Position numbers and translations under genes: made by a program
Notes under the pieces: model-generated
What the model was told of the DNA's origin: nothing
Database searches by the model: none
The model's input: only the letters and a program-made list of their open reading frames with translations
Assembly: GCF_000001735.4 (NCBI RefSeq)
Contig: NC_003070.9
Location: 4,526,001-4,590,000, forward strand
Length of the DNA stretch: 64,000 nucleotides
Direction: 5' to 3'
DNA from: Arabidopsis thaliana
Taxonomy: Eukaryota; Streptophyta; Magnoliopsida; Brassicales; Brassicaceae
Shown: piece by piece, positions 9,482-56,339 of the stretch
Layout: each line of letters begins with the position of its first letter
Position numbering within the stretch: position 1 is the first letter of the stretch

Positions 9482-9537
9482 GGTTTGTTTTATACCTTTT
9501 TCTTTTTTCTTTTGTCGAAGAGGTTTGTTTTATACCT
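9482..9537. repeat. 16-bp direct repeat flanking a T-rich insert
   Basis: GGTTTGTTTTATACCT is found at 9482-9497 and again, perfectly, at 9522-9537. The 24 bases between are T-rich and end in GTCGAAGA. Read on the minus strand, this is a short head TCTTCGAC followed by an A-rich tail, flanked by a target-site-like duplication. Confidence 0.75.
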
Positions 9538-9969
9538 AAAAATAGAAAATATAGCAATGACCAAAAACATCTTGGTAATAGTATATTTTTTGCCTTCTTC
9601 CATTATTATATTTAATTCGAATTGTCTATTAATCTTTTTTCAATGAAATTGCCTATGAATATTATTATAGTATGGACATATATATTATCAAATAATGAAA
9701 TTTTTGAATTGCATTTGAACTTCATAGACATTGTTATTTGCTGATCACGAACTTTCTTCTACGCCAATGTTTTTCAATTCCCACATTATTAAAGTCCAAT
9801 TACGATCAGTTGATGTATTAAATTAGTCGTAGGAGATTACATTGTACGTGTATAAAAGTTGGTCTTGTTTGGCTCCAATTGGCGTGGTTTACGTGTGAAC
9901 AGACACAGACAACTTGACGAATCAAAACGCATAAAACGCGTGGCAGAAAGTTTCTATTGCTCCAAAAAC

Positions 9970-10029
9970 AACTTTTTTATTCTCTTTTTTTTTTGACAAA
10001 GAAATACAGTAACTTTTTTTTATTCTCTT
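9970..10029. repeat. About 17-bp direct repeat flanking a T-run plus 16 bases
   Basis: AACTTTTTTATTCTCTT at 9970-9986 recurs at 10011-10029 with two extra T in the T-run. Between them lie eight T followed by GACAAAGAAATACAGT. The minus-strand reading is a short head ending in TTTGTC, then poly-A. Confidence 0.65.
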
Positions 10030-10522
10030 AAAGAAATAAAATTCCAGAGTACTTTAGTTCAGTGTATATCTCTGATTTATTTAATTACTATTATAATGAT
10101 TACATACAACACACCTGCTACTGCCACGCTTTTATTCGGTAAGAGAGATCTTTATTTTCAACTATCCCAAATATCTATAAATTTAAAAATTAATTTTCTG
10201 TACCAACAAAAAATATCTAATAATAAGCATTTTGGGCCGCCACTTGTGCCCGAGACGTTGAAACCAAGGAAAATATTTGTGGTGCTGGTGCAGCTAAATT
10301 CCAAAAATGAATTTATGGGTTCATTTTCAGAGTTTTGTTTTCTAGGACCGTTGTAATAAAAAATCTTTTGTTCTCGTTAAGTATAATAAGAATCTTGATA
10401 ATAGCTCTTTGTAGTTATAGATGTGTATCTATTAGTCTTGGTCAATAAGGCAAAACTAATACATACTACTAAGTTACATGAATTGTTCGAGAAAGTCTTG
10501 TCTTATAAACTCGTTTAGTTTT

Positions 10523-10562
10523 CTTTGAGAGTACTTTTTTCTTTCTTTACTTTGAGAGTACT
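10523..10562. repeat. 13-bp direct repeat flanking a pyrimidine insert
   Basis: CTTTGAGAGTACT is present at 10523-10535 and 10550-10562. The 14 bases between are TTTTTCTTTCTTTA. This has the same architecture as the other A-rich or T-rich inserts of this window. Confidence 0.7.
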
Positions 10563-12939
10563 ATGGTTACGTAGATAATAATCATCGTTATCGGCTTCTA
10601 ATTTGTATAAGATAATAACTTTTATGCATTTTCTAACACGAGAACTTATCGAGTTATCTCAAACGTCACGAAAGAAAAAGGACAATGAACATAATATATT
10701 ATATTATCCATTTGTATATTTAGACATATATTTTAATTTATTAACTAAATCCGTTCATGTGACAAGATCGACCCTTATAAGAAGGAGAGATTCGATTTTG
10801 TCACGAATCCTTATCTGTCCGAAATTGTTTTTAGCAATATGCGATTATCGTAATAATTTTCTTCTTTATAATTAGTGTCATAAATCTATTACTTTCTATT
10901 TTGCTGTTTCCAAAATCTTTTTGTGTTTATGAACTGAACACTCATATAAAAAAAAAATACTTGTAATTGCAACCGTTAAATGAATGTTATATTAGCAACA
11001 AACTTTGGTAGTTGTTGGAATGGAACTAAGCACGACATTATCCACGCACTTCAAACATTTTTTCCCCGACATAAATATATCTCTAATACTACTATGTATA
11101 TAGCTAACTACCAAAGCTGAGAGAGTGAGAGTAACCACAATTTCTTGAAATTTTGTCACAAGTTCTTGCATATATCGATATGTCCACACAAACAATCAAA
11201 ACATTCGGATATTCATAATTATGATTGTATATCTACATGACAGAATATTAAGCAATGCGTAACAATATTTTTATGACTAGTTAATTTTGTTTCAGTTCCT
11301 AATTCCAACGGTGTCGGCCAAATAATACCTGAACCGGCCGGTTTTTAAAGAATGAATAAATAATGTGATATATGACGTGGCGTGTCGTTGGTAGTGGGGG
11401 ATTAAGATGGCGCAGCCATGGCCCATGAGCGATCTTAAGTCATTCTAATTAAAGTTAAGTAAAATTATATTAGTTCATCTCTAACCGAAAGCGCGCGTTC
11501 TATGTGGCACCAAACATAGATTCTTATTTTAAAACATTATCATACTGTATATATCTCCTAACGATAATCGTGATGGATATTAATTAATCTAAAATATATC
11601 TATGCAGATAAACACTCGCTTTTAAGAAATTATTTGCTTTACAAATTAGATATAGCGTTTTGATGATTCGAGGATTTACTTTTCTTTAACCAAACGAATG
11701 TTCCTAAATACATCACCAACGAAATGTTACATACTTAGTTGACTAATCTCGTAAGATAATGATGTGGAAATCTAAATGAGGATATATAAAGAGCCGTAAT
11801 TGTTAACCGATAAGGCGATAACCACTTGACATCATCGAAAGTTCGGTTAGTGGAACAATAAAAGATTAATTAGATGGTAGCAATCGGATTTTCACGTTTC
11901 TTTATTATTGCCGCTCAGTACTGTAATTCATGATAGGACAATGAATCTATTTATAAAGTAATCAACTACATTTTCGATCGAGTGATAATGTATTTTTATG
12001 TAAATATTTAATAAACTATAGCTTTTAATTATTTTAGATAATTACAGAAATCATTTAAAATATAAGTGTGCGCAAATGAAAAAGTCTATTAAGAACTTAA
12101 AGCATAATCAAAACAATTAGTTTAACTTTACAATTATGTTCATTTTATATGCCGTCATTTCTCTTACGTGATTAATAAATAGGTAAGTAACTAACGACTA
12201 AACCATCAGCATTTATAGTCCATATAAAAACCATCAACAGCTGATCCAATTGCGGAAAGTCAATGATGTAAGCAGATCCATCAGCAATTTTTCCAAATCA
12301 ATTCAGATTTTAATATCTTCTTCATTCTCGCTGATAGATATTCGTTTAGACTACGTTTTCTATCTTTGGTCGCATACAGTATATAGAATAATAACAGAAT
12401 CTACAAAATAATATATTCCCCGCCTAATCTTCTGGACATCATCAGTTTATTGCATCCGAAGAGGAAGAAACCTATACTTTGACGATTATCAGCCATCTTC
12501 TATTGTAATTTGATTTGAAAAAGAACTACTTATAAAGCGTTTTGTATATTCTATAGTTTTAATTTATATTATCGGTGTCACAGGGTTAATGTGAAATTTC
12601 CAGCTCAAAGACTCATATTCTTTTATGAGTATAATTGGTAGTATATTCATGAGTTATAGTGGGTATATTGATGAGATTATTGAACATATGCAAATATATA
12701 CTGTTTAAGATAGCATGCAGAGTACCCAATATCAAAATTAAACCATTTATAAAAACACGTTTTTCTCGAGGCTCCATGTAATACTAAATCAGGACTCTTG
12801 TCTTGTTTTCTGAGTTAGATGAATATTGAATACCCAAGCAAGATAAAATAAAATAATTTGAGCCAGCACAAGAAATGGAATCGTTGAGTTGGATACAGGT
12901 AGGAATCCGAATAAATAATTATGTTTGAAATACATGAGC

Positions 12940-12982
12940 AAGATGGAGAAAATTAAAAAATTTAAAAAGATGGAGAAAATTA
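12940..12982. repeat. 16-bp direct repeat flanking an A-rich insert
   Basis: AAGATGGAGAAAATTA lies at 12940-12955 and 12967-12982. The 11 bases between are AAAAATTTAAA. It could be a tandem duplication or a short A-rich insertion with target duplication. Confidence 0.6.
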
Positions 12983-13813
12983 TTCTTAAAGAAGAGTTAC
13001 AGTATTACCTACCAGTTAGTATCGTTTATCAAATATATATTTAATATTACTTATTTTTATATGTTAATTCATGAAAGCTCATAAACATAAAGGGGGAGAA
13101 AAATGTTATAGTTGATTGCATTCGTGGTAGCATAAACTATTTCAAACCTAATTCTTACAATAATTGATATAAATATTATAGTTATGTTAATAATAAACCG
13201 TTGTAAATTATTTACATCATCATCTTTAGAGTCGCTATAAAATAATATAAAAGTTATTTACATTATTAAAAACTAATATAAATATATAAAATAACTTTTT
13301 TAATTGTCGTGTCTGTATATTTTTTCTTCAGTGTGTGTATTTTTAAAATTAAGAAAGACGAAACCATGAAAAAGTTACTTCAACACATTCAATGTGAAAG
13401 CTATATATGAAATAAAAAAATATCCCAACGCATTATAATTCAATTAGACAAGTCGAGTTTTCTGGTTGAGAAAAGAAAAAACTTTAACAAAAAAAATTGA
13501 AAAAAGAAAAGAAACCAAAATCGTTTTTTCCGATATATCGTGTGTTATACGTTGACAAAATAGGTACTGATGGAAATTATTTACCGACAAGAAAATAATT
13601 AAATATATCAACGAATTGACAAGCTAAATAAGCTAAAGGACCAAGTTGAGGAAAAATGAGGTCCACCTGCGGACCAATAACAACTCGTCCGTACTAATAA
13701 TATCTATTTATACCTATGTTGGATGTTTCAAAAAAAAAAAAATTAGCATCATAAATCAGATACTTTTTCCTTTAGCACTCTTATCTATTTTGTTTCTCTA
13801 TAAATCACATTCT

Positions 13814-13861
13814 AAGGTCTTCTACCTCCTTTGCTCAAAAAAAAAAAAGGTCTTCTACCTC
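13814..13861. repeat. 15-bp direct repeat flanking a poly-A insert
   Basis: AAGGTCTTCTACCTC occurs at 13814-13828 and 13847-13861. The insert between is CTTTGCTC followed by a run of ten A, so the head-plus-poly(A) form is on the plus strand. Confidence 0.7.
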
Positions 13862-15799
13862 TTTTTTCTAAAAACATACAGTATATAATTGTAGTTTTCT
13901 TATAAAGGAGTAAAAATATGATAAAAAGTTCTGTTACTCTTTTATCATATAACAAAACAACTTTCACTATCTTTGTAATATCTATAAAAATATGCAATGA
14001 TATAAATTCCAAACAAAATTTACAAAACGTATAGAAGAAACTAACTAATTCTGATATGATCAAATCAAAAGTATAAAACAATGAAAGTGTACTGGTGAAA
14101 ATGTCTCTCTTTTGTAAGCAGAGGTTACACAACTTCAATAATGTATCACTTACAAAACCAATTTTTCAATTTGGAGCTCAAATACTTAGAATCATAAAAG
14201 AAACATGGATGAGCCCAATCTCTCTTACGGAGACAAATTCCATGAGAAAAGAAAGCTGAGTTAGCAACAAGTGCCACGTGACAACATACTCAATTTCTTC
14301 TAAGGAAAATACAACCATCTATTTCTTTTTGTCGCATACCCACCCATATATGATATACTTAGAACCATTTTAAGTTTTTTTAAAACATAAAAATACGATT
14401 TTAAATTTGAAAATTTGATTAGAGTGTGATTATCTAATTATTGTGTTGTCTATAAATCTACACAGTCACTACTTTCTACCACACTGATTTTAACAAAATC
14501 AATTAAAGTTGATCAGCACTTATTTCTTTCATATGGGCTTAAATGCCAATTTACTTATATATATTTTGATGAAAATGTGTGGTAAAACTTAAGAAACAAA
14601 AAAATCCTAACACTAATTAGCGCCTAGGTATTTTGAGCAATGCCTCTTTAACTTAAAAAGAAAAAAACGAAAAAAGACAAAAGTAATTGTCCTGCTGTCA
14701 AGAAATGCCCATATTATTATTCATCCACACAAGACACGTACGACCATGCCTCTTAGTGATTTGTCATTGGCCCACTTCCCATCCTAGTGGATCAAATTGA
14801 TAATAAATACTATAATAAATAATTACAAGAATTCAAATAGAAACCGGCAAATCAATTAATAGATATAAAAAGGAGATATAAATCGTTAACATTTTCTATT
14901 GGAGCAGGGAGAGCCAATAAAAGTCGAATCTCACGATATTTCGCAGTTCTCTAATTGGCTCTTTGCATAAAAAATGAAACCTAACTAATGGGTAGAAGAA
15001 TACTTTTGCAAAGCAACAAATATATCAGATAAGATCGTAAGCTATCCACATCACTTGTTAATTGTCCTCAAACCATATTATATAATGCAAACAATTTATG
15101 GCGTTAAATCCTTACGTATTTATTCTCTATAAGAGTAAAACACACACACTGAAGGCAACTGATTTAATTGGATTTCTATTGACCAGTAGAAATACTTGTT
15201 ATGATGTCGGTCGCTCGTTGGCTAAGTATTTCTTATAAATATATAAGACATATTTAAAATCTTTTTACATTACATACACCCACTTATGAGAAACAAATAT
15301 AATAAAATGTTGATACCAAATATATATATATATATATAATAAAATGGGATAATTACAAGAACAACAAAAGAGAGATTTTTTATGAATTTGGAATTGGAAT
15401 CTATCGAGTGCATATATTATACGGACAATAATCCTCATAGCAATACACATTTTTTCTATAAAAAGAAACGTAGGATAAGATTATAGAAAGAAGAATAAAA
15501 ACCTGGAAATGGAAAATAAAGAAGATATATATCATGAGTTCATGACTAAACAACTATTTATAGCTTTTTCAATAATAATATCATTCAAGAGTGAAGAATA
15601 ACAATCAGATTTGGAAGAGAAAAAAATTTAAAGAGAGACACCATTTAACATCGGTAGGATCTGAACATGGTTATCAAATCTAATACTTTCTATTTTATTA
15701 TTTTTCATATAGTTATTATCGTTACTATAGTATTATAGTGAATTAAAATTTTAAGCATCAAAACTCAGGGGGGATGAACTTCACTAAAATGATGTCAAT

Positions 15800-16310
15800 A
15801 TCTCACGTGGACCCTTTATCCATTCCATGGCCCACACATGGGTCCCACTTCCCCATGCACACAGCCCACAACATATTCATTTCTATATTTGTTCCTATAC
15901 TCTCTTTTCTCTTTTTCTTACATAAATAAAATACTAACTTATTATAAGGATTATTATTGCTTCGTGTGTTTTCTTCTATAAGTTACATCAACAGTTCATG
16001 AAATAGACCCTAATATAGTAACCTAAATTAAATGCCGTATATTTCATTATGTTTCCACGAAGCTTCCTTTGTGTTCTTTGAGTTGACCCATACACACCCA
16101 TCTTACTTCCCATGCACCTGCACATATACTATAATTACTCCCCTCAAACACGCATTCTTACAAATATATTTTTTGTTATTACCAAATAAAAAGTGAAACA
16201 TAAAATAATAATATCAGAAGTGACACTTGCTGTTTCTTATTTCCCTCCCCCCAAGCTCTTTCTCCTTCTTTCTATATATATTATACACACACACGTATAC
16301 ATATACACAA
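15800..16310 (+). promoter_or_regulatory. RAV1: RAV1 promoter region
   Basis: A TATATATA box at 16273-16280 lies about 105 bases before the RAV1 ATG, leaving a CA-rich leader of about 80 bases. Further upstream a G-box CACGTG lies at 15804-15809, and GGGTCCCAC, which resembles a TCP-factor site, is at 15840-15848. Motif function is inferred from consensus only. Confidence 0.55.
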
Positions 16311-16385
16311 CATAATTCACAACACAACACAAACACATTTCTGTTTTCTCCATTGTTTCAAACCATAAAAAAAAACACAGATTAA

Positions 16386-17420
16386 ATGGAATCGAGTAGC
16401 GTTGATGAGAGTACTACAAGTACAGGTTCCATCTGTGAAACCCCGGCGATAACTCCGGCGAAAAAGTCGTCGGTAGGTAACTTATACAGGATGGGAAGCG
16501 GATCAAGCGTTGTGTTAGATTCAGAGAACGGCGTAGAAGCTGAATCTAGGAAGCTTCCGTCGTCAAAATACAAAGGTGTGGTGCCACAACCAAACGGAAG
16601 ATGGGGAGCTCAGATTTACGAGAAACACCAGCGCGTGTGGCTCGGGACATTCAACGAAGAAGACGAAGCCGCTCGTGCCTACGACGTCGCGGTTCACAGG
16701 TTCCGTCGCCGTGACGCCGTCACAAATTTCAAAGACGTGAAGATGGACGAAGACGAGGTCGATTTCTTGAATTCTCATTCGAAATCTGAGATCGTTGATA
16801 TGTTGAGGAAACATACTTATAACGAAGAGTTAGAGCAGAGTAAACGGCGTCGTAATGGTAACGGAAACATGACTAGGACGTTGTTAACGTCGGGGTTGAG
16901 TAATGATGGTGTTTCTACGACGGGGTTTAGATCGGCGGAGGCACTGTTTGAGAAAGCGGTAACGCCAAGCGACGTTGGGAAGCTAAACCGTTTGGTTATA
17001 CCGAAACATCACGCAGAGAAACATTTTCCGTTACCGTCAAGTAACGTTTCCGTGAAAGGAGTGTTGTTGAACTTTGAGGACGTTAACGGGAAAGTGTGGA
17101 GGTTCCGTTACTCGTATTGGAACAGTAGTCAGAGTTATGTTTTGACTAAAGGTTGGAGCAGGTTCGTTAAGGAGAAGAATCTACGTGCTGGTGACGTGGT
17201 TAGTTTCAGTAGATCTAACGGTCAGGATCAACAGTTGTACATTGGGTGGAAGTCGAGATCCGGGTCAGATTTAGATGCGGGTCGGGTTTTGAGATTGTTC
17301 GGAGTTAACATTTCACCGGAGAGTTCAAGAAACGACGTCGTAGGAAACAAAAGAGTGAACGATACTGAGATGTTATCGTTGGTGTGTAGCAAGAAGCAAC
17401 GCATCTTTCACGCCTCGTAA
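16386..17420 (+). CDS. RAV1: RAV1 transcription factor (AP2 and B3 domains)
   Basis: A single-exon frame of 344 codons that I recognise as RAV1 (At1g13260). An AP2 domain spans about residues 61-115 ([18 protein letters not shown], then WLGTF and AARAYD). A B3 domain spans about 186-295 ([20 protein letters not shown] onwards). Near the C terminus RLFGV (303-307) matches the B3 repression motif. RAV proteins bind a bipartite CAACA plus CACCTG site through the two domains and act in the nucleus, mostly as repressors of growth and flowering; RAV1 is repressed by brassinosteroid. Lack of introns is normal for this family. The ATG at 16386 is preceded by an AC-rich leader with no upstream ATG close by. 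Confidence 0.98.
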
Positions 17421-18998
17421 CAACTCTTCTTCTTTTTTTTTTCTTTTGTTGTTTTAATAATTTTTAAAAACTCCATTTTCGTTTTCTTTATTTGCATCGG
17501 TTTCTTTCTTCTTGTTTACCAAAGGTTCATGAGTTGTTTTTGTTGTATTGATGAACTGTAAATTTTATTTATAGGATAAATTTTAAAAAGGGTTACTTAG
17601 ATATGTCTCAAGAGTTTTATTAGCATGAGATGATGAAAATGTTGTTACCAAATCTTACCTTGGTTTCTTTTCATTTTATGTGTATGGGAACTCGTATTTA
17701 TATGTATGCATTAGCTACTGCTTATGGTATTTGCTGCTTTTTGTATATAGATTTGAGGAGTTATGACTTATGCGTACGTAATTTTATAAAATAACTCCAA
17801 CCAAAAGAGAAAAAGTTTGCAGGGTCTGTAAACGTATATAATCGTATGATGATATGATAGACCATACTCCGATACAAATAACCAAAGAGAAAGATATTTT
17901 AAAATGAATGCTATTTAAGCTTTTGCAAGATATTATTTTAAGCTTCAGAAATTATTGTGTTGGTAGAGAGATTCATGTTGCTGTTAAATAATATATATGT
18001 ATTTATAATTCTATCTACTACTTTTTCGGCTTAACTCAATCTAGATATTTGTTTCTAAAAGTGTTTTAGTTTTCTTTCTTTCGCTGGCTGCGACTATGAG
18101 TATCTTCAGATTCTCTACAAACTTAGGTATATATAGCTATTTATTTCGAAGGAATTTGATGGTTAAAACGAATAACATTAAAACTCTGTTAATCTCTTAC
18201 GAAATGGTATATAGTATATGCGTTAGAGTTTGAACATATGATGATAATAGTACACCTGCCGCATACATTACTATGTACCTACATAAAGGAATATATTGAC
18301 CATTGATCTAATGAATGTTCCGTTCATATGCACTTTCTTTCGATACAATTCGGTGGACTATAACATTATTCCATTATAGCATAAAATCCTATTATACAAT
18401 TAAAAATGCCCACGCAATTTTACGTATACTTTTGTCTATAACACACATCCACACATAATTCAAGTTGTGTTCAAATAGTAACACAGCAGTAGCTTTAGTG
18501 AAAATTATTAGACTTGTTGATACCAAAGACTAGAAAGAAAGAAAATAAATAAATGTACTAGAAAAAATCCACCATCATAATCGTTATTGTTGTTTGATTT
18601 TTGTGGATCCATTTAGATATACATTTATCAACGACTAATTCTCAATCTAACAAATTCTATAAGATAGGAAAATTTTGAAAAAGCACGATCATAATTTAGA
18701 AAAACACAAGTTAATCATAAAGTTACTAATTTAATAGCTATAATTTCTTTTAGTTACAAGAACCATAAAAATGTCGTCAAATATCTTTTAGATAATCTTG
18801 TCATAATTCAAAACTTCAAGCAAATCATATCTTCATAAACCCCATATGGCCTAAAGTAGCCTATACTTGATCGATCATATACAAGCCCAATGGGCTTTAA
18901 AGTCCATTAGTTTGTTAATTAAAATATCAAGAACCATTTTTTTTTTCTCTTCACTGCAAATTTTGATATTTTGGGTTTTAGCAGTGAAGTTTGCGAAA
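17421..18998. other. Spacer between RAV1 and MAP1C
   Basis: It holds the RAV1 3' untranslated region (T-rich after the stop) and the MAP1C promoter. Between these I see only AT-rich sequence with no coding features. Confidence 0.6.
18883..18897. promoter_or_regulatory. Site II inverted repeat upstream of MAP1C
   Basis: AAGCCCA, one A, then TGGGCTT forms a perfect inverted repeat about 100 bases before the MAP1C ATG. It gives one TGGGCY site II motif on each strand. Such motifs are TCP targets common in promoters of organelle-related and housekeeping genes. Confidence 0.6.
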
Positions 18999-21155
18999 AT
19001 GGCGTCTTCGGTTTTTCTATCCAGTTTCTCGTCATCGTCTTCTTTGCAACTCTGCTCTTCCTTTCACGGCGAGTACTTAGCTCCGTCGAGATGCTTTCTC
19101 GGAGCTCCGGTCACTTCCTCTTCTTTATCACTCTCCGGTTTGTCATTTTTACTTGTCACTGTTTCTTCGTTTGCTCTGTTCGTTATTCAATTATTGCTTC
19201 GTTTTTCATTGGAAGATATCGAAATTATTGGTCATCTGATTGGAAATTTTGAAACTTTCTCCGTTGTTCCGATTTTGAATGTTGTATAATTGAAGAACTT
19301 TGGTGTATGAAGTTTATCTTCTCTCATATCTGTAGGTAAGAAGAACTCATATTCTCCGAGACAGTTCCATGTTTCTGCCAAGAAAGTTTCTGGGTTAGAG
19401 GAAGCCATTAGAATCAGAAAGTAATTAACTTTGTTTAACTCTCTTGTATCATAAAAATGCAATCTTGAAAAAAGAATTCATCTTTTGGTCATAGAGCTAA
19501 TAGTACATTAATTTGGTTTACATTTTATAGAATGAGAGAGCTTGAAACTAAATCAAAAGTTAGGAGAAATCCACCATTAAGACGTGGAAGAGTATCGCCT
19601 CGTCTTCTTGTACCTGATCACATTCCAAGGCCTCCTTATGTTGAGTCTGGTGTATTACCGGATATATCAAGTGAGTTCCAGATTCCTGGTCCTGAAGGCA
19701 TTGCGAAAATGAGAGCTGCTTGCGAGCTTGCTGCTCGGGTTTTAAACTATGCTGGAACTTTGGTTAAGGTAAGATTTTAGTTTCCTTGTGGATCTTTTGT
19801 TTTCCTATGTTATGGATATGTGGTCTGAGTTGTTGTTTATATGGTTCTGCAGCCATCTGTTACGACTAATGAAATCGATAAAGCTGTGCATGATATGATT
19901 ATTGAAGCTGGTGCTTATCCTTCACCTCTTGGATATGGTGGATTTCCTAAAAGTGTGTGTACTTCAGTTAATGAGTGTATGTGTCACGGAATACCAGATT
20001 CTCGCCAGCTACAGGTCCTCATGTGTGCTTTTTACTGCTTTAAGCTGAATAGCTTTGAAGGAGTTCATTTGTTTATCACTAACTATTAAGTCTTAATGCA
20101 GAGCGGGGATATAATCAACATCGATGTCACGGTTTACTTGGATGTAAGTCATTTGCGCTTCTTTTGTTAATTTGCAGACACTTTCACTTTGTTTGATTTC
20201 TACATACAACTTGAAACATCGACAGGGTTACCATGGAGATACGTCGAGAACTTTCTTCTGTGGAGAAGTTGACGAAGGTTTCAAACGACTTGTGAAGGTA
20301 GTATTCTTCTTCTTCTTCTTCTTCTTCTTCTTCTTCTTCTTCTTCTTCTTCTTCTTCTTCTTCTTCTTCTTCTTCTCTTCACTGTGTTTTGTCTTCAAGT
20401 TCACAAAAAAATGAATTCTGTTTTAATATGCTAACTGTTGTCGGTTTCTTGTTCTGTAAGGTTACGGAAGAATGTTTGGAGAGAGGTATTGCAGTTTGTA
20501 AAGACGGAGCAAGCTTCAAGAAAATCGGGAAAAGAATCAGGTTGCAACCAAAACTATTCTTGATTTCAATATAACCGTGTAGAAATGTACTATTTGAGGA
20601 CACTGCTAGAACAAACAATCTCAATGCTTTCAATTTCCAACAGTGAGCATGCGGAAAAGTTCGGCTACAACGTTGTGGAGCGGTTTGTTGGGCATGGTGT
20701 TGGACCAGTATTCCACTCCGAACCTCTTATATATCATTACCGTAAGTAATCTCTTCCTTAGCAAAATCGTTCTTATGTTAGGAAACATCAATCAAAAACA
20801 ATAGTTGGCTGCATATGCATATGAACCTGGACTTACGGTTGAGGAATTTTAATCCAATTTGCAGGAAATGATGAGCCTGGACTAATGGTTGAGGGACAGA
20901 CATTCACAATTGGTTAGCCATTTTTTCCCCTTCCATGTCATGGCTTTCATTTGCTTATGATTAGGTGATTACTATATAATAAAAAACCGATGAATACATT
21001 ATGTTGCAGAACCGATTCTCACGATTGGAACCACAGAATGTGTAACATGGCCAGACAACTGGACTACTCTGACAGCAGATGGTGGCGTCGCTGCTCAGTT
21101 TGAGCATACCATTCTGATTACTAGAACTGGTTCAGAGATTCTTACCAAATGCTAA
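18999..21155 (+). CDS. MAP1C: Methionine aminopeptidase type 1, chloroplast (MAP1C/MAP1B)
   Basis: Ten exons: 18999-19137, 19336-19420, 19531-19768, 19853-20014, 20102-20143, 20226-20297, 20461-20540, 20644-20741, 20865-20912, 21010-21155. They join in frame to 369 residues. The enzyme removes the initiator methionine from new proteins. Residues 1 to about 55 are Ser-rich and lack acidic residues apart from one Glu, which suits a plastid transit peptide. The metallopeptidase core shows all five metal ligands of the M24A family: D216, D227, H290, E322 and E353. The substrate-site histidine is H199 in CMCHGIPD. The N-terminal SH3/zinc-finger region of cytosolic MAP1A is absent, as expected for an organellar form. 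Gene identity At1g13270 is from memory. Introns 6 and 8 carry unusual repeats described separately. Confidence 0.96.
20304..20375 (+). repeat. (TTC)24 microsatellite in MAP1C intron 6
   Basis: Twenty-four perfect TTC units begin six bases after the intron 6 donor (exon 6 ends at 20297). The tract fills 72 of the 163 intron bases. Its length is likely variable between accessions. Confidence 0.95.
20821..20895 (+). repeat. Exon 9 echo in MAP1C intron 8
   Basis: Intron bases 20821-20845 match the start of coding exon 9 at 20871-20895 in 21 of 25 positions, exactly 50 bases apart. The intron copy lacks an exon-like continuation after GAGGA. Confidence 0.85.
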
Positions 21156-21623
21156 AACTATTCACATTGATCATTTCCATTTCACCTTTTATTTGCTGAT
21201 CATTTAAGGTCCATAGTATAAATTCATTATCTTTGAGACCATAGTCTAACAATTTGTGTTAGTGCCATCTTTTAAGATCTCAAGATTAGTTTGCTATTAG
21301 AAATTTTCCCACATGTTCCCTCAAGTCTTTCTTTATTCCACAAATTCCCATTTCACAACAATTATTTGCGACTTTTTTTGTTTCCCTGTCTTTTTGTGTT
21401 TAATTCTTAGTTATTTTAGATGAAGCTAGAGACCCACTTTCCCATATTTACGCACATGGCTCCTCATCATTCATCATCACGATAAAAATGCATAGTACAT
21501 AAAGTATCCATTAAAACGTAGATCTAGTCTCTTCACAACACTTCAACAGTTCAACTAATAACGCAAAAATCAGTTTCTCTTTGAGTAAGTGTTTATTACA
21601 ATTAAACTAACTCAGGCAAGTCT
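21156..21623. other. Spacer: MAP1C 3' region and AOC4 promoter
   Basis: No gene is seen. Two CACATG hexamers, a variant G-box bound by MYC-type factors, lie near 21310 and 21453, upstream of the jasmonate gene AOC4. Their function here is inferred. Confidence 0.5.
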
Positions 21624-28821: not shown

Positions 28822-28856
28822 TCCATGCATCCAAGAAAATTAAAAATCCATGCATC
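28822..28856. repeat. 10-bp direct repeat flanking an A-rich insert
   Basis: TCCATGCATC occurs at 28822-28831 and 28847-28856. The 15 bases between are CAAGAAAATTAAAAA. Confidence 0.5.
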
Positions 28857-30535: not shown

Positions 30536-30583
30536 AATAAGTATCCATCTCCTTTTTCTTTTTGGTCGTCTAATAAGTATCCA
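30536..30583. repeat. 12-bp direct repeat flanking a T-rich insert
   Basis: AATAAGTATCCA occurs at 30536-30547 and 30572-30583. The 24-base insert is pyrimidine-rich and ends in GGTCGTCT; on the minus strand it reads as the short head AGACGACC followed by an A-rich tail. Confidence 0.75.
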
Positions 30584-41348: not shown

Positions 41349-41376
41349 CCTCACCAAAACTCAAATCACTCCCTAC

Positions 41377-41688: not shown

Positions 41689-41699
41689 CGATTACGCTG

Positions 41700-42415: not shown

Positions 42416-42453
<38 letters not shown>

Positions 42454-43410: not shown

Positions 43411-43621
43411 TTTTCAGGTAAGTTCTTCGAATTTGATTCAAAGTTTTCTAGAAACGTTTCTTGTATAAACACACACATATGCAACTGTACAACATCATTG
43501 AAAGCTTATATCCATAAAGAACACAATAATCTTACATCTTTGACCACAAAAAGAACATAGAAAAGTACAAAACTGAGTGATTACACCGTAGATGCACCTG
43601 AAAAACTTATAACATTTGTAC

Positions 43622-45043: not shown

Positions 45044-46501
45044 GGCCGAGTTGCAGAGAAGAGAGGACAGGTAGAGAATAAGAGTTTATGTTGTCTTCCT
45101 TTGAATTGGAAGTGTTATAAGAGAGGAAAGAGGAGAAGACGCGTTACGACATACGAAGACTTCTTAGCAACGAAGTTTTCAGAAGTTAGAAAAAACGACC
45201 TTAAAGAAGAAAATGTGGTACGAATTACGAAATAATAAGCCAAATAATAATAAAAACAAAATGGACCGCTATTTAATATTGCGCCATCGGATTAATTATT
45301 TTTAGACCAAATTTAAATCCATTGTTGAAAAAAATGAGTATCGTATCTGATTAATCCAAAATGGGTAGCATATCCGAATACGCTATATCCTTAAGAAACG
45401 TTTTGGGCAGTTTCTTCAAACATCTAGATCTTATTACTCTTTCTTATTTTGAATTTTCTTTATGTCCACCTAAAGTTATTAGAATATCTTGTGAAAATTA
45501 TTTGAAGAAAAGCTACATGAACCAGTCTCAAAACATGAAACTAGTAACACTTTGATTAAATAAAGAGAAATAGTCATCGGTACCAGTATCCACATCTGAA
45601 CCGGCCATAACTTGTACCAGTCTAGTCTTAAAACATGAAAATGCATGTAAGATTCAGGTTTCCCCTATAAATTGCAGTCTTTAAAGTTTGTAATTTGTAT
45701 AATGTGAACCATGGACCCATAATTATTGTCTCATGACGAGGAACGTTCGTTCTGTTCTAATTTCTTTAAGTTATTAGAAAACAACAGAAAATAAACGTGT
45801 AAGAGAATCCCTCAGGTCCCAATATTTGTTCGAACTTTCCTTACAAAACTATAAACGGAACACTCATAACAAAGTCGTGAAAAAGACTTGCGAGAAATGT
45901 CATTGTTACGGCTCTTACTATTGCAATTAATTTAAGAATGACAGGTTTAGATGAATTATTAAAGCAGCCATTAGAAAACACACCATTTCATCTTTATTAG
46001 GTGTGACTACAATATCATGATCAAAAGACTACTACAACTCACCTGCACGCAACTTTCCACGTCAAAAACATTAGTAACAAAAATCTTGTTATTATGTTGA
46101 AGAGAGACTTTTTCTTCTGTTAGGTACGAAAAAAATGGAAAGACCTTGTTTATTTACCAATGCAATCGTTTCTCTAGACATAATTCTCCCACTCATCAGA
46201 GGTGAACCAAACAGATTATAAATATTTTGTAATCACAGATTTGCAAAACTAACTTCAAATGCTACCTACTCTTTCGTAATTATACACAAGTCCTCTCAAA
46301 CTCTGATATACTTGTATAGTTGCATGCACGTGATAATAATGTGAAACCGCCAACTAAACAATGGCCAAGAACTTAGATTATGGAAGACTGAATCACATGA
46401 ATCTAGGAACAACATCATTAACAATTTCTTTAGAATCTTAATCAAAAACTAATCGTTTAATATTCAATGTACATGTATCTAGGGTAACAACATTATGAGA
46501 T
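45044..46501. other. Spacer between the IST1-like gene and PRP4KB
   Basis: It contains the IST1-like promoter (right of 45044) and the PRP4KB 3' region. A diverged direct repeat, ACCAGTCT followed within 10 bases by AAAACATGAAA, occurs near 45531 and 45616. No gene is seen. Confidence 0.55.
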
Positions 46502-49500
46502 TCACTTGCCCGTGATGAATGGGTGAGCTAATGCCTGTGACACTGTAATTCTCTTCTGAGGATCAAGTATGAAAATTCTGTCTAGAAGATCCCTGAAATG
46601 AACCAACAACTTGCTATCTTCATCCTTATAACGTTGTTTAATTACTGAACCAAATTCTTTTGGCTTTATGTTTACCATCATTCTCTTTGTTGTCTTTCTA
46701 GTAACACTATCCTCCTCTGTAGCATAGAAGCATAAGTCCTTATCAAAGTGCTGATCGATAAATGCTCCCTTGCGAAGCATCTTTTTAGGGAAGGCACCTT
46801 TCAGTTCCATATGCAGGCGTAACATTTCATTGTTTGTGGAGCCAGGGAACATAATTTTCCCGCTAAAAAGCTCATACAGACAGCAACCAACTGACCATAT
46901 ATCTAACGGATGGTCGTAGGGAAGTCCAAGAACTACAATGAAAAAAGAGAGTACAGCTTTAGTTATAATAGAACATACAGCCATGAAATATCCAAGTAGA
47001 TGATTAAGACAACAGCAACAGTGGAACTTACTTATTTCTGGAGCTCTGTAGAAGCGACTAACAAGATATGGTGTAACTTCGTTTGTACCAGCAAACATTG
47101 CACTACCAAAGTCACAAAGCTTTAACGTGTTTCTTCCCTCATTCACCTGGATAATCAAGGAACGACCAGAAGTTAAAATTTATGTGCATCAAGCAGGAGA
47201 AAAACACAGACAAGTATAGCTTACCAGCATGTTGTCAGGCTTTATATCGCAGTGAAGAACCCCACAGTTCTTGAGATGTTTAAGGGATATGAATAACTGC
47301 GTTGCATACACTCTAACACCAGATAGTTGAATACCAATGTTGCGACCATACTTCTTCACAATCTCACGGAGATTCAGATGAAGAGACTCAAACACCAAGC
47401 AAAGGTGGTTCCTATACTTAAAAGTTGAAAGAAAACGAACGCAGTGGCGCTTATTCTCTGGGTCAGAGCCAGCTAGCTTCTTCAATATCTGAATCTCAGT
47501 CTGGCCGGCCTTATGCCTACACAAAACGTGATATGATAGTGAGACATTCACAACTCTTAGGAAGATAAATCAAACATCACTTGATAAGAATTTTGATAAA
47601 ATTTGTCCGGTCCTAGAGAAGACCACTTACATTGTCTCATTGTTCCGAATAATTTTTATAGCCACTTCCTCAGGTTCACCTAGTTCAGCTTTTGTGTCTT
47701 TTGCCCGCACCACGGTAGAGAAGACACCTTTTCCATGAGTAGCCATGATTTCATATCTATCATCAAGTAGTTCCCCTAATTGATAACCTAAAATTAAGAG
47801 AAGATCTTTCATTGTTAAGACTTAAGATGACAAATATTAGAAGGCCTTTTCCAGTTGAATGATAAAACACGAGCAATGAAATGTTCATGGAATTATACAC
47901 AAATAGGTCTTCAAAGAATTTGAACTTAAATAATACATAGACAAAATAAAAACACTTACTGTAATAACCTTCTGCATCATCCCAATTATCGTCGAGTCCA
48001 CTCCTTACAATAGGAATGCCATTCCCTTTCCCTCGCAGATAGCCCTAAAATAAAATAATTTACGAAAAACTCCTTAGCCAACAGACAATTATTCTCCACA
48101 AACACATGTCAGAATGAAAAGGCAATGAAAGAAGTTTCAGGAGTATGAAGGCAACAGTTGACTAGTGTACAGCAATTGATGAACTACTACCAAAGCAGGA
48201 TAGAAATGTTTCTAGGAAACGAAAGAAGAGAAAAAGCTCACTACAAAAATGTAGTGGACAAAAGGAAGTCCATTTCTTGAGTATCTTGTCAGATGATGTA
48301 CGGGGAAAACAAAGCAGATGAAACCAGAGTTAGAAAACTCTATAAAGACAAGGTCAATAATTTGAGTAAGAGTACATACCATTTTCTGACTATCAGCTGG
48401 AGACTCCCCAAAGATATCATCAGTGAACATGTCATCTGATATTTTATCCTAAAAATATAGCATAATATAAGACCGGGGAAAATAAAATAAACAAAAAGCA
48501 TTCCCCAACAAACAAATTTCCTTTGCAAACGCACCTTTGGGCTGCCTTCCCCAAGCCCTGTGGAAGCTAGTGTCCTATCTGAGTCTGAAATTACAAGCTG
48601 TGCAGGTGATTCCCCAACTGCCGATGAAAGCTTGGCGACTTCACCATCTACGGCATCAATATCCAACCCAGCTTTAGCTTGATTAACTGCAGAAGTAACA
48701 GGCCCCAGAGTACCACTTCCAAGAACATCTGCCACAGTAGAGGACTGCTTGGGAATGTTTGCTAGCTCAAGATCTGGATTCATAAAATATTTGTGTAAGT
48801 AAATGTGGGAGGGTGGGCCAAGAAGAATGACACTTTCAGTGACACAATTAATAAAATCTAATGACTATTCTACTAATCGAATTACAACCCACAGATACTA
48901 ACTTGAAAGGCTCAAGTTGCTCATAAGTGATAGTTTCGGTACACAATACAAAAGATTTGAACAAAATGACTACTCCCATGTCGACTAACAGAAACCCAAT
49001 GTAAACTAAATGTAACAAGTACACACACAAAGTAGAGAAAGGGCAACTTTGAACAACACCCATATACTAAATGAGCAAATATAAATTCTTCATGCATGCG
49101 CTGTTCAGAGCAATGATCATTAAGAAAACTGATAATCCCCTTACCATGAGAAGAAAATCCGTTTTGCTGCTCCAACTTTTTCTTATATTTCTCCATTATG
49201 GCTTGCGTTCTCCTCCTGCTTTCCTCGATTAAATTTAGCTCTTCATCTTCTTGTTCAACTTCCCAAACAACAACGTCACCTTTATCATCATTATCAATTC
49301 TGGTCCTGTTTCAAATATAAGACAATCAAACACTATTGTAAAAGGTGTTGCACATTTATAACCAACCTAAACATTCACAAGACAAAGTTTTTTCTGGGTG
49401 AATATACCTTTCAACATTTCCCCGAGTTTCTTTGACATCGCCACTGTTAGGATCATGGCCATTTACAGAAGTTGGGCTTCTTAACTCTAAGTCATCTTCC

Positions 49501-50547
49501 GCATCATGTCTTGAGTGTCCAGAATGTTTATGCCTCACTTCACCATATCCATCATCAAGACTTTTATGCTTCTCTCTATCACTCTGGAATTCTCGTCCTT
49601 TATCCCTATCTTTTTCACTCCGTCTCTCTCTTTCATTCTCCCTCCCCCTCTCTCTACTACTATACCTGGCTTTATCTCTACTCCTACCTCTGTCGTTGTC
49701 TCTATCCCGTAGGTAATCTTTTTCCCTGTCTCCCCTGCTATCTCTATCAACGCTTCCCCTCTCTTTTCTCCTTTCACGGTCAGGCTCTATCTCTTTTCTT
49801 TTCTCACATTCTCTTTCCCTCCGCTGATTTCTCCCCTGCAATCACCGCCACAACATATTAAAAGACTGGTTACAAGAGAAATATATGGCGTAGAATAAAT
49901 AAGCATGAGCATACATGACATTTATATGAAAGATAGTTATAAACGCGTATCCAGCTCTTACAAATCAAGGGAAAGCCATCATCTCCATTGAACGCCTAGT
50001 GCAACTGCTTTTGCATTTCTTACAAATGCATGAGACATTCAGGTTATCTAATCCCACACACAGACCAAGAACGAACTTCATTATAATAAGATAAATGGCA
50101 CAAAACCACATATTACGAAAGAAAAATCTAGACTTTCCCTACTTTCAATTAAAAGCCTTTTGATTCCACCATCCGAGAAGAAGATAAGCTAGCAAACCGG
50201 AAACAATAAAATGAAGTAAAAGGGCGAATAGAACAGACCAGATTATTCTCCCGGAATTGACCAGATTTTATATCCCCAAACTCGTCGACGGACTCTAATT
50301 TCTTCTTCAATGTCTCCCCAATCCCTTCTTTTCCTAATATCTCACCTTCTTCCATATCAAGATCACCACCGTTAACATTCTCATCATCGTTATATTGAAC
50401 TTCCTCATCACGATGATGACGGTGGCCATGCCTGCGATGGTGATGACGGGACTTGTGCCGCTTCGGAGATTTAAAGACCTCGTCGGACGGCGAAAACGAC
50501 CGTCGGTGTTTGCGGTGGTTTGATTCTACATGCTTGTCACTCACCAT
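46502..50547 (-). CDS. PRP4KB: PRP4-type dual-specificity kinase PRP4KB, splicing-related
   Basis: Ten exons: 50547-50239, 49835-49408, 49305-49145, 48773-48535, 48448-48380, 48044-47960, 47787-47631, 47516-47225, 47146-47032, 46932-46502, giving 761 residues. The N-terminal 230 residues are His/Arg/Asp/Glu-rich with many RE, RD and RS dipeptides (RRHGHRHHRD, RERRSEKDRDKGRE), an RS-like nuclear region. A CMGC-type kinase domain covers about 442-758: lysine K475 in VAIKII, catalytic D573 in HCDIKPDN (Cys replaces the usual Arg of HRD), D592 in CDFGSAM, and RFYRAPEI. PRP4 kinases phosphorylate spliceosome components. PRP4KA/B/C are the Arabidopsis paralogues as I recall; this is At1g13350. Exons are in perfect phase. 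The first ATG in frame is used. Confidence 0.95.
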
Positions 50548-51228
50548 CAGATCGTCGAAATTAGGGGGAAATCGCAAAATTAGGGTTAGGTTCGATTTTG
50601 TCGCGCGCTCTCTCTCAATTTGTGTATCCGTGAAAAAAGACTTACCAGATTTAACTGATTTGTATGGTTACGCGGTAGCCTTAACCGGATATATAAATCA
50701 ACGAATCCCAGGTTTACTTATATTTCCAGTTAATTTGACCGGTTCTCGGATTTAATGATTTTATTTATACAGATTGAACAGTTAACTTGACCAATCTTTT
50801 AATCTGGCATAATCGGTTAGACCCAATCCTTAATTTGTAGTTGTTGTTGGTTTTGGGCCTTTTGGGCTATATAACGTATGATTCATGGGCCATCTTATTC
50901 ACACCAGTCTGAAAATGAAATCAGACTTACCGTTCGATATGTGAAACTGAACGTATAATAAAAACTGACAAAGAGAGTTTTTCATTCTGAAATTTCACAT
51001 TAACAAAAGCTATGAAAAAAAGATCTGGAAGAACAAACAAACGAATTCGCTAATACTAATCTAGCAAATTACCCTTACAAAATATTTAACTTTTCCTAAA
51101 TCCTAATAATTTTAGTTAATAGATATTAACCATCGGGTTAAAAAAAAAAGCGAGGGAGAGCCAAACGCTTTAACAAAACGATATCGTTTTCATTTCCCAC
51201 CTAATTAAAAAAAAAGTTTGTTATTTAT
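50548..51228. other. PRP4KB promoter and 3' region of the acidic-protein gene
   Basis: TGGGCC (50854-50859), TGGGCT (50863-50868) and TGGGCC (50886-50891) form a site II cluster about 310-345 bases upstream of the PRP4KB ATG. No other gene is seen. Confidence 0.6.
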
Positions 51229-51813
51229 TTATTCCGCCGGTAACGACTCCGACCGCCACGAAAACAGATCGCCGGAGTCAAAACAATCGTCGGAAAATTC
51301 AAACAACCCCTCAACAGCCACGTAATCTCCACCATCTCCGACGCCGGAACCAAAATCTAAACCACCGTAATTCGACACGTGATCTTCAAATCCCCAAATC
51401 TCGTCGATTCCTGACGAATCAGAAGACGCTCGTACCAAATCCGTTACCGTCTCCGTCGTTACCTCCTCCTTCGCGACGGGAACCGGAGAAATCGATGGAG
51501 GTGGTGGTAAACCAAGCTCATCATCGGAAGCTTCAAGAAGATATCCGAGATCAGGCTGAGTTTCGCCGGCGGTAGAGGAACCTTGCGCCGTCGTGGTGGT
51601 GACCGTTGATAACTCGTCTTCGAAACTTTTCATAACCGAGTCGAGATCTTGACTCACTGGTTCAGGATCCGAGTCATCCAGGACATCGAATAAATCATCT
51701 CTCAACCTCTTCACCTCCGGCGAGTCAAGAACCGCTTCGTCGAATGACTCGTCTCTGACTCGCTTTTTCTCAGCCGAGTCAGTCCGAGTTATATCCAACA
51801 ACTTCTTCTCCAT
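51229..51813 (-). CDS. Small acidic protein of unknown function
   Basis: A single-exon frame of 194 codons from the ATG at 51813. Codon use and composition look genuine, unlike nearby random frames. It is acidic (many Asp/Glu), Ser-rich and has no signal peptide or membrane span. Near the middle is DLGYLLEASDDELGLPPPP, which looks like a conserved linear motif with CK2-type acidic serine sites; the N terminus has two basic patches (EKKRVRDE, EVKRLRDD). I do not recognise a function. The leader is CT-rich on the coding strand (about 51940-51970). It matches locus At1g13360, listed as a hypothetical protein in my memory. Confidence 0.85.
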   Translation of the reverse strand: MEKKLLDITRTDSAEKKRVRDESFDEAVLDSPEVKRLRDDLFDVLDDSDPEPVSQDLDSVMKSFEDELSTVTTTTAQGSSTAGETQPDLGYLLEASDDELGLPPPPSISPVPVAKEEVTTETVTDLVRASSDSSGIDEIWGFEDHVSNYGGLDFGSGVGDGGDYVAVEGLFEFSDDCFDSGDLFSWRSESLPAE

Positions 51814-53352
51814 AGCTTTGGCAATTACGTTTTTCTTTGTGTGTTCGGTGAAACGTATTTTTTTGAATCAGTGGCAAAATCGAAATAAGTGGGGGATAGA
51901 GGTGCAGAATGGGAAGAAGGGAACACGAGATTATATAGTAGGGGAGAGAGATAGAGAGAGAAAGAAGGAACGCGTGAGATGTGACGGATACTGAGGCGCG
52001 TGGTGAGAGCGAATCCTTTGGAATCACGGATCCCTTGCCTTTTTTATTTTCTTTTTATTTTAAAGCTTTTTCTGGGTTTTTTACTATCATTTTTAGAAAA
52101 AAAATATTAATTAGTTTTGAAAACTTCCAGATGTCGCTTTCTAGTTTTAAAAGCATTATAAATTGATTTGAATTCAGATTTGAAGTCCGGTCACGTTGCA
52201 GTGCACATGCCCAGTCAATTACGCCTTCTCGATATTTCATTTCTTATTTTAATATCCTTCTCTAGATTTTTCTTCAAACATAATTATCTCTTAACCTTTT
52301 TTTAAGACTTATAGATTTTTCTAGAAAATATCGCATGTAATAATAAACACTGAATATTGATTTTTTGTGGCGACAAAATATTGAAGAATATTTTGTTGTA
52401 ATTATTTGTCTGTATAAAAATAGATGCTGAAACAAAAATTATGTCAACAATTTTTTTTATATTTTTCTTGTTTGCCATGGAATTTAAACGAAATTAATGG
52501 GAATGAATGTTATATTAACGAAATTAATGGAAGAAATACTGTAAGCACGTAAGAACTGTTTTAATCAAATTGAAATTATAAAATTGTTAGTGGTTGTATA
52601 TGTCCAGTGGTCATAGATAGACTTATTACTTTGGGTGGTCCTTTAGCTTACTACTATATTCAACTTCATCTACCATTGTACAATTTAAACGAACGAAAAA
52701 GGAAAGAATATATATGTATAAATATACAATAAACTTTTTATCTACTGTTTTCTTTTTTTGATAGAAAACTTTGCTAACTTTTTGTATATTATATTAAAAC
52801 CATTGGTCCATGACGAGCTATGTGAATGCATTTTTTATATGAAGATTTCATTCCATATATATCTATGCTTTTTGATCATTTACACGTAAACGTGAAAGTT
52901 TTATGGGGCACAAATCAAATTACTTTTTCCTATGTTCATATTTAGATATGATAGGACGCAGACAACATTTCCACTACGAGTTTCCTATTGTCTAATAATA
53001 TCATTGGTCGAGTTTGAAGACAATTCATAATAAATAAACAACAAGATGAACCACTTCGAAAATAGTTAGATTTTACTTCATGATATGGGAAACGCTAGAA
53101 CAATTTGCAACCGAGTTAAAACAAACCTTAATGTAATGATTTTGCTAATTTTTTTATTCTTGTGGTATTACTATAGGGAACCTCTATTAAAAAAGTAGGT
53201 TGATGTTGAGAATTTTGAGTTTGGAATAAGGTGTGGATTTAGACAAAAGGTGATTGTTTTAATTGGTGGACAATAGGCATCTTAGTGTTGCCAATATACG
53301 TGGTTTAAGCAAAGTTGTGATTCTTGGGTAATACATTTATGTATCTGTGCAT

Positions 53353-53393
53353 CCATTACTTTCTTCTTCTTTTTCAAATCGAACCATTACTTT
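53353..53393. repeat. 10-bp direct repeat flanking a pyrimidine-rich insert
   Basis: CCATTACTTT at 53353-53362 and 53384-53393 flanks 21 bases that read CTTCTTCTTTTTCAAATCGA plus one A. The minus-strand form is a short head, then an A/G-rich tail. Confidence 0.6.
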
Positions 53394-54769
53394 TTTTTTA
53401 AAGAATATGATTGTATTATCAAAGATGCACGTTTCTCCTCTTTTTTCGGTATGACATTTCGAGCAGTCCATATCAAACATATTGGTACGATTTTTTGGTG
53501 GTGAGTGACCTAAAATTTATTTGCTAGATATAAGCAAAGAACATATAACACTATATTGAATATCCATCGCACTAACGTTTTCTCTTTTCTTTAAGGGAGT
53601 AGCCAAATTATTTTTACTTAGAAACTTGTAGAATGATCATAGGATCCAAATGATCTTATGACTGACCTAAATTTGTGAGGAAAATAATCGTGTCAATCAT
53701 AAATGCTAATACGTTTTGAATCATTCAATATATCGTGTCAATTTGACAACAACGATTTTACCTCTAAACATTACTTTATTGTAGAATGATTCTACATGCA
53801 TCTGACTGTTTTTCTATGTATCATACACGCTTTTATTTAAGCTGATTCTTTTGCATTTAACCCTTCCTTGTTTCAAAGGAAACGTACATATTATGGGTTT
53901 TACGAATACAAAGATACAATAATACATACATTGCTCCAGAAACTGAGTTTAATTTCGAGAAATAAAAAAGTTAGATGACAACAAAAGTAGGTACAGAAGA
54001 CAAAATGTACCTCTTCGGATATTTGGATGGTTTTGGTTATTTTATTCAGAATTTATCTATATATCAATTTTTTTGTGTCGTCCATCTATATCGCTAAGTA
54101 TGCGTATACGTAGGCCTACATGATGTTGGCCTCATCGTGCGAATCATACACGTATCAAGAAATAAATATCAGTAAACCCTTTGTCAAAAACTAACAAAAA
54201 AAAACTGAAGGTCCACTACAGATCAATAAATTGACACTTAATAAAACTCTACACGTATTTATTTACATACTCTATCAAACCTAGAAAACCTCTAAAATGT
54301 CAACTAAAAACCATGAGCGAAACAAATAACCTATTCACAAACAATTGATATTGGTAGACCACCATAAAGAGTTCTTTATATTTGTTACAATTGACAAGTA
54401 ATGCTGATATTCCTGAATGCTGGTACATATTAAAATAAAAACACTGTTACATTATGTATAATCATAGTTAACTTGAAATATTATATGTTATCAGTTTTTT
54501 TACATTAATACAAATGTAATATTTATATTTAACTTTGTATTAATACAATTGTCTTTAAATTCACTTAAAATAAGTATATCGATTTGGGTATAAAAAAAGG
54601 GCTATAAACAGTATAATGTTTTTAATCATCTTATGAATGACTACTCTTAATTAAAATTATGTGAAGTACATAATTGCTTAGATAGATTTACAATAAAAGA
54701 TAAATAACTATACTTTATTTTTTTGGTCAACAATTAAAATTCCCTAATACAGCATAGATACGCAGATGT

Positions 54770-54813
54770 CTTCTTGTATATATTTTAGCAAAAAAAAAAA
54801 GCCTTCTTGTATA
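54770..54813. repeat. 11-bp direct repeat flanking a poly-A insert
   Basis: CTTCTTGTATA lies at 54770-54780 and 54803-54813. The 22-base insert is TATTTTAGC, a run of eleven A, then GC. Confidence 0.65.
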
Positions 54814-56276
54814 GTGATTTTAAAACAAAAGTAAGATATATTGTAAAAACTAATCAAAGTGGAGGTGAAGCATAATTGTGTTTTGTGAGTGGTATATATG
54901 CGCATGTTGGATATGAATATCAAGCTGGGGACAGTTTCAGTCTATCGGGTGTTTTTCTAAATAACAATATACCCGAGCATATATACTAAGGTTTTATATT
55001 TATACGTTTAAATCAAATGTAGTGGAATAAATAAGTAATATATACATTTACTTGATTTATTTTATTGTATTTTTCATTTTGAGGCCAATTCACAACGCAT
55101 CACGTGAGTACGAAGCAATCAAGTACAGAACCTCACAAAGTAAATTACGTGGTCCCCCACCAACGTTCCATGTTATCTATTCTCTAATAATCTTTTTAAT
55201 TGACATTTTATAAAGATTATTTCACAAAAATATTATAACCTATCAATATTTTCCGGATTGACATTTTCTTACCTGACATTTATTTATTTAATATCTGTTG
55301 ATGAAGTTATAATCGATCTGTTCATATTTTAATGGTGTCAATTCAGTTGGATTTAGTTAGGGGTTTGAATGGTTATATACAAATTTGCATTTAGATAACT
55401 TAGAAAGTAGTGAAATAAAAAGTGGTAGTTGATAAATTTCCATGTGCACACCAAATTTTTAGTACGGCATATGGTAGCATTTAAAAAGGTACTATATATA
55501 TGTAAATTAATTATCATCTGAGTTTTGGCTACTCTAAATGCTAATGAATTTAGCTGTGAATTATAGGGGGAAAATATAGATTCTTATAGTTTCTATTTTA
55601 TGTAAACATATTCTAATTGGAAAAAGTATATATGGTACCTTTATTTATAATAATAATATTAATTAAAAGGAAAATTAACCCATCAAAAAGTATTAAAATC
55701 TCACATAAAATGTTTTTTTTAAATAACTGTTTGAGCTAGACCCAATTTAAACTTAACGAAATCCTCCATATAGTCCATCGAGTAACTTATCTGAATAAAT
55801 AAACAATTCCATAAAGATAATTCGTAAAATAAGTTGTATTTATTTGGTGACCACGGAAAGAAGAGTTATAATGTAAAAATTAGCTTTCCTATTCTTTTTA
55901 CATTTTTTTTATTTTTTTTTTATTTTTCATGTGGTCCAAGGAAAGTAATTTTTAAAACGACAATAATTTTATGATTTGGCCTTCTATTAAATTTCTGGCC
56001 ATTGGTTTTAGGTTACATCAGTATGGATATGGATTATAGTAATCAATTCAGCAAAATAAAATTTTCATTTTCTGTGGTAATGGGAGATTTGGAAAAGGAG
56101 CGCAACACATGACACGATTCAATATTTAAAACCATATAAATGACAGGTTTTCTATATTAAACATTTAATATATATATAAACACTTATATATCCTTTTCTT
56201 TATATATATACGGATAACATTTATCGAAGTAATTTTAAATATGAAATTAATAATCAATTAAATATGACATATGAAG

Positions 56277-56339
56277 CTACTAGCCGGCGCCCAAAAAAAA
56301 AAAAAAAAAAAAAAGAAAAAAAGAAAAAAACTACTAGCC
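56277..56339. repeat. 9-bp direct repeat flanking a long poly-A insert
   Basis: CTACTAGCC lies at 56277-56285 and 56331-56339. The 45-base insert is GGCGCCC followed by a long A-tract interrupted by two G. It has the shape of a severely 5'-truncated retro-insertion with target-site duplication. Confidence 0.7.

Follow-up and report, generated by a model that had tools for sequence, protein, structure and literature searches.

How do A-rich inserts of a few dozen bases come to lie between the two copies of a short direct repeat in the spacers of a compact plant genome? The question is raised by a 64-kb stretch of Arabidopsis thaliana chromosome 1 (positions 4526001-4590000; hereafter the window, whose own numbering is used for its sites), where an earlier note had listed ten sites of one shared architecture, namely a direct repeat enclosing a short head and an A-rich tail. 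Reading the sequence directly, we found all ten in place, with inserts of 11-45 bases; head and A-tail are clear in eight of them, 12940 is headless, and 28822 is a weak member. No window site lies inside an open stretch of at least 120 codons. We conclude that the sites are probably micro-retroposons, i.e., short products left where target-primed reverse transcription broke off early, with poly(A) RNA as template, some of it RNA of long interspersed nuclear elements (LINEs). Target-primed insertion is favored over polymerase slippage by three lines of evidence: (i) empty sites in paralogs; (ii) the polarity of the A-run; and (iii) a few heads that match the last 6-8 nucleotides (nt) of LINEs.

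Empty sites, polarity and frequency

Paralogs were sought for 25 sites (for L017 only within the fetched sample), and sequences spanning the site were obtained for two, both outside the window. The site at L017:5465-5510 belongs to an 81% tandem duplicate, the other copy of which carries one copy of the repeat and no insert. For the site at L008:7374-7428 there are two relatives, both on chromosome 2 (L030 and L031); each has a single copy of the repeat, slightly diverged, and lacks the insert. In both informative sites (2/2), the compared sequences indicate that insert and duplication were gained in one step. Slippage, which the earlier note had offered as the alternative, is unlikely because these three paralogous copies hold a single repeat without an insert.

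If the tail was copied from RNA, it is expected to adjoin the second copy of the repeat when the A strand is read, and we therefore scored the polarity of the A-run. Counts were made in a 264-kb set, consisting of the window and twenty 10-kb pieces of the arms of chromosome 1, and in a 314-kb set, which adds five pieces from other chromosomes. In the 314-kb set, the A-run abuts the second copy rather than the mirror position in a ratio of 13:2 (one-sided binomial p = 0.004), and in the 250 kb outside the window the ratio is 10:1 (one-sided p = 0.006). A looser flush-tail scan, which includes some tandem arrays, gave 33:10, with 12940 scoring in both orientations; in pericentromeric pieces the automatic rule gave 2:1, all in one tandem array. 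Our first scoring, made without the flush rule (40 compared with 28), was too loose, in that short inserts were counted in both orientations, and was replaced by these stricter rules.

Frequency was compared with ten block-wise dinucleotide shuffles. In the 264-kb set, exact direct repeats of at least 12 bp around an insert of 6-60 bases numbered 48, as against 2.1 in the shuffles, and such repeats with an A/T run of at least 5 in the insert numbered 20, as against 0.5. The frequency in this 264-kb sample is far above that in composition-matched shuffles. Among repeat pairs of at least 11 bp with inserts of 6-45 bases in the 314-kb set, 21/60 held an A/T run of at least 5, and length-matched neighboring segments gave 10.3 ± 2.8 such runs, with 0 of 2000 draws reaching 21. 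The two excesses are separate findings. Spaced duplications, whatever their insert, occur far more often than chance would give, and their inserts are in addition about twofold enriched in A-runs. The density of roughly one site per 3 kb of spacer that had been claimed is not borne out: requiring an exact repeat of at least 11 bp and a run of at least 5, we counted 7 sites in the 64-kb window, compared with 14 in the 250 kb taken from elsewhere in the arms, both per total sequence. A list compiled by hand (see below) gives 10 sites in the window versus 14 elsewhere (p = 0.014), but these sites were the reason for choosing the window.

LINE ends, heads and tails

Domain searches indicate that the genome holds many L1-type LINEs, with many remnants of their second open reading frame (ORF2): the zf-RVT domain (PF13966) scored above cut-off at 150/150 scored places, drawn from 534 first-look candidates, and several of these lie in open frames of more than 1000 amino acids. 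We fetched 48 stretches downstream of the domain and took as the LINE end an A-run of at least 7 at a rule-set distance, which was found in 40; three doubtful rows, L047 (second A-run), L040, and L054, were kept as the rule gave them. These ends include TTTAGC, TTTGAC, TTAAACC, TTCATACC, and TTC, and the base before the A-run is C in 28/40.

Heads were compared over 24 sites, hand-curated from several scans. Omitted were 12940, most 9-bp cases, tandem arrays (L012:6100-6480 and L029:2339-2800) and, among others, sites with an unclear tail or a longer duplication (L018:7629, L019:721, L007:8986, L013:8462, L013:4899, L017:4084, L007:5370, and L004:1958). The last base of these heads is C in 18, G in 6, and T in 0, compared with 286, 284, and 284, respectively, before 854 other A-runs of at least 6. 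Of the heads, 4/24 share their last 6 or more nt with a LINE end, as do the bases before 28/854 of the other A-runs (p = 0.009 by Fisher test; mean p = 0.011 with length matching). The four heads are those of window site 54770 (TTTTAGC, the 3' end of LINEs L061 and L062), L023 (TTTGAC), L026 (GTTTGAC), and L014 (TTCATACC). On these matches a LINE origin is supported, though short of proof, for a minority of heads; the other heads lack such a match to the sampled LINE ends. The earlier suggestion that several heads are related is partly borne out by the bias in their final base. We rejected the ideas that the heads form one family or are tRNA CCA ends, since the only objective match was to LINE ends, at 4/24 with one ambiguous; tRNA ends were not compared.

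Genome-wide word counts gave 209 places for TTTGAC-A10 and 45 for its mirror, compared with 19 and 35, respectively, for the permuted word TTTCAG-A10. A 17-base LINE end containing TTTGAC and the tail, allowing up to 3 mismatches, occurs at 8 places, of which 4 keep TTTGAC and 3 of those have A10, so that no more than 3 of the 209 places retain this end upstream; most of the TTTGAC-A10 excess therefore does not come from copies keeping 17 bases of that LINE. Of the three TTTGAC-A6+ runs in a 334-kb sample, two show a head of 7-8 nt together with a perfect duplication (15-17 bp), and the TTTGAC-A10 place in L023 bears a 17-bp repeat. The excess fits micro-insertions, though more diverged copies or unsampled element families ending in TTTGAC may account for it instead.

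Tail interruptions (rule AAA+ X AAAA+) were counted in the 8 of 24 tails seen to hold them: the interrupting base is G in 6/6, compared with 177/524 in other A-tracts. In Arabidopsis, more than 10% of poly(A) tails are reported to include G (PMC6724284), and together with the G-only interruptions this suggests tails of RNA origin. The insert tails, it is suggested, resemble RNA tails in general rather than LINE copies.

Probable retroposition and its rivals

If the sites arose by retroposition, a nick made by L1-type LINE machinery would open the target, and the 3' end of the target would prime on the poly(A) tail of an RNA. Reverse transcription would cover the tail of the polyadenylated RNA and no more than a few to some twenty of its other bases before synthesis stopped, and joining to a staggered second cut would duplicate the 9-17 bp target. 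Early stopping after leaving the tail would cause the small size, and mRNA or other RNAs may have supplied the remaining heads. Plant L1-clade LINEs are thought to recognize the RNA poly(A) tail (PMC3747384), and target duplications of 7-20 bp are reported for LINE-mobilized elements (PMC2848041). The hand-listed sites fall within that LINE-type length, at 9-17 bp with a median of 13 bp, in a search that itself required at least 9 bp.

Near-tail-only retroposition in a plant is a variant of known retroposition. The sites share with the 5'-truncated LINE and Sadhu retroposons of Arabidopsis a 3' poly(A) tail, target duplications of similar length, and truncation on the 5' side; they differ in keeping 3-18 body bases, too few for homology-based annotation, and in having no significant T/AAAA start. 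They also resemble mammalian tail-only L1-mediated insertions, with an A tail, a target duplication, and almost no body. Those poly(A)-only insertions are known as rare disease cases, whereas the sites here form a recurrent class in a plant genome, a few of them with LINE-end words. Partial Sadhu copies have been described as consistent with abortive retrotransposition (PMC2848041). No paper matching tail-only micro-insertions in plants was found by title or start of abstract in the open-access literature searched.

Several observations weigh against this reading. As to the insertion itself, the earlier note had proposed a test for a TTTTAA-like nick site, and this part of its target-primed scheme found no support, while the empty sites, the polarity, and the few LINE-end heads speak for the scheme: over the 24 sites no significant T/AAAA motif was seen at the duplication start (leading-A sum 38 versus 30 ± 7.8, p = 0.17; preceding T 13 versus 11.9, p = 0.41). 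A T/AAAA start is reportedly favored by Sadhu and short interspersed nuclear element (SINE) insertions in Arabidopsis (PMC2848041). No window site has a paralog spanning it, the two pericentromeric pieces (20 kb) hold no convincing member, and inserts without an A/T run are commoner, at 39/60 repeat pairs, some of which are coding repeats or arrays. As to the LINE source, 20/24 heads have no match of at least 6 nt to the 40 sampled LINE ends, and weaker cut-offs are not significant (at least 3, 4, and 5 nt: p = 0.18, 0.23, and 0.10; Mann-Whitney U test p = 0.06). The L014 match holds only with a 13-bp reading of its repeat; under the alternative reading, a repeat of 22 bp containing two mismatches, the head is CC, and the count falls to 3/24 (p = 0.05). 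In LINE tails, judged by eye, the interrupting bases include T and C besides G, which sets these tails apart from those of the inserts. Finally, the 40 LINE ends match 56 places in the 334-kb sample, and among the best 40 of these there is one long LINE copy (L029), to be set against the 24 hand-listed inserts. Inspected by eye, the same 40 places include, in the way of intermediate truncated LINEs, only a handful of short, weak matches that lack a repeat (L017:4495, L023:5342, window 27858, and L003:3122), so that no size continuum of LINE insertions is visible. We hold target-primed insertion to be probable and no firmer than that because of the missing nick motif, the few mid-size LINEs, the duplications without A-runs, and the alternative of cDNA capture considered below.

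One rival overlaps with the reading just weighed: the retroposition would be the same, and LINE RNA would be replaced as the source by SINEs, tRNA-like RNAs, or ordinary mRNAs. The heads without a LINE match (20/24) favor such sources, as do the G-only interruptions, since G occurs in mRNA tails. Several heads end in ACC, and ACC stands before A-runs of at least 7 24 times compared with 2 for the mirror (314-kb sample), an excess that possibly marks more retroposed ends. A SINE-like pattern (part of the B-box plus A10), however, shows no excess over its mirror (69 versus 68, overlapping matches included). An mRNA source sits poorly with the base before the tail, which is T in 0/24, though plant mRNA ends are U-rich. 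We regard such sources in place of LINE RNA as possible, if rather doubtful.

Repair of staggered double-strand breaks would also leave a direct repeat around filler, as is present at the sites. Fill-in of the overhangs would make the repeat, and patch-mediated or theta-type end joining would ligate in filler, which may at times be A-rich or a captured scrap of poly(A)/oligo-dT cDNA. Plant breaks are reported to give rise to tandem duplications (PMC8355091, citing Vaughn and Bennetzen 2014 and Schiml 2016), which resemble our sites in the short direct repeat, which here surrounds a short filler. The many spaced repeats without an A/T run (39/60) and the lack of a nick motif at the 24 sites are in keeping with such repair. 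With genomic filler, break repair predicts no polarity, contrary to the observed 13:2 and 10:1, although the version with a captured poly(A) cDNA scrap would show it. Neither the C-ending heads nor the LINE-end words nor the TTTGAC-A10 excess is predicted by break repair, and random filler would lack the polarity and the recurring head ends of the A-tailed class. We consider this explanation unlikely, though it deserves to be kept in view.

Slippage or chance, by which A/T runs would expand or arise between pre-existing repeats, suits the A/T-rich spacers and could account for 12940 and 28822, but it is very improbable for the class given the frequency far above shuffles, the unique bases in the heads, and the three paralogous copies, which imply that repeat and insert arrived together.

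Implications and features of the window

If retroposition of this kind is the source, LINE activity in this compact plant genome has been badly undercounted, and extrapolation from 14 sites per 250 kb of arm would give thousands of micro-insertions genome-wide. Tentatively, and with less than even confidence, we propose that most products of the LINE machinery here are abortive, i.e., thousands of inserts of fewer than 50 bases in which a LINE RNA or other poly(A) RNA is represented only by its tail and its final few bases, with the 209 TTTGAC-A10 places as one source family. Such inserts would seed A-runs and short duplications in gene-rich spacers while escaping homology-based annotation; they would be a mutational source for both, and the distribution of their sizes would be informative on the early stopping of LINE reverse transcription in plants.

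Table 1. Repeat-flanked A-rich inserts in the window
Position	Strand	Direct repeat	Insert	Remark
9482-9537	-	16 bp, perfect	head TCTTCGAC, tail AAAAGAAAAAAGAAAA	
9970-10029	-	17/19 bp, two-T difference	head ACTGTATTTCTTTGTC, tail A8	
10523-10562	-	13 bp, perfect	TAAAGAAAGAAAAA	nearly all tail
12940-12982	.	16 bp, perfect	AAAAATTTAAA	no head or polarity; non-diagnostic
13466-13510	+	14 bp, one mismatch	head AACTTTAAC, tail A8	possible extra member; low-complexity repeat, weak
13814-13861	+	15 bp, perfect	CTTTGCTC, then A10	repeat extends with one mismatch
28822-28856	+	10 bp	CAAGAAAATTAAAAA	A/T-rich; weak member
30536-30583	-	12 bp, perfect	head AGACGACC, tail AAAAAGAAAAAGGAGA	
53353-53393	-	10 bp	head TTCGATTTG, tail AAAAAGAAGAAG	
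54770-54813	+	11 bp, perfect	head TATTTTAGC, tail A11, then GC	
56277-56339	+	9 bp	head GGCGCCC, long A tail	tail with two G interruptions

The layout is typified by 9482, where one copy of the target is followed on the A strand by head, tail, and the identical 16 bp again. A few extra bases stand beyond the A-run at 30536, 53353, and 54770, three of the eight clear sites, and the first repeat copy of 53353 starts, on the A strand, within a run of nine A. Owing to the length difference of its copies, 9970 escaped the exact-repeat scan.

A paralog of the left flank of 12940 was rejected as an empty-site test, as the similarity stops 2 bp before the site. This 117-base segment (window 12821-12937) is 93% identical to C5:8671149-8671265; its flanks look unrelated on both sides, and the segment could be a small mobile piece in its own right. 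Perfect spaced duplications of 14-17 bp with inserts of 11-42 bases lacking A-runs lie at window 33569, 56797, 52487, and 27080 and are possibly break-repair products.

Outside the window, the array at L029:2339-2800, in a pericentromeric piece of chromosome 5, is a degenerate tandem array with units like TTTTGGCGGGAAAATGTTGAAT. The segment L010:627-1552 is near-palindromic, with about 926 bases matching their own reverse complement at 94%.

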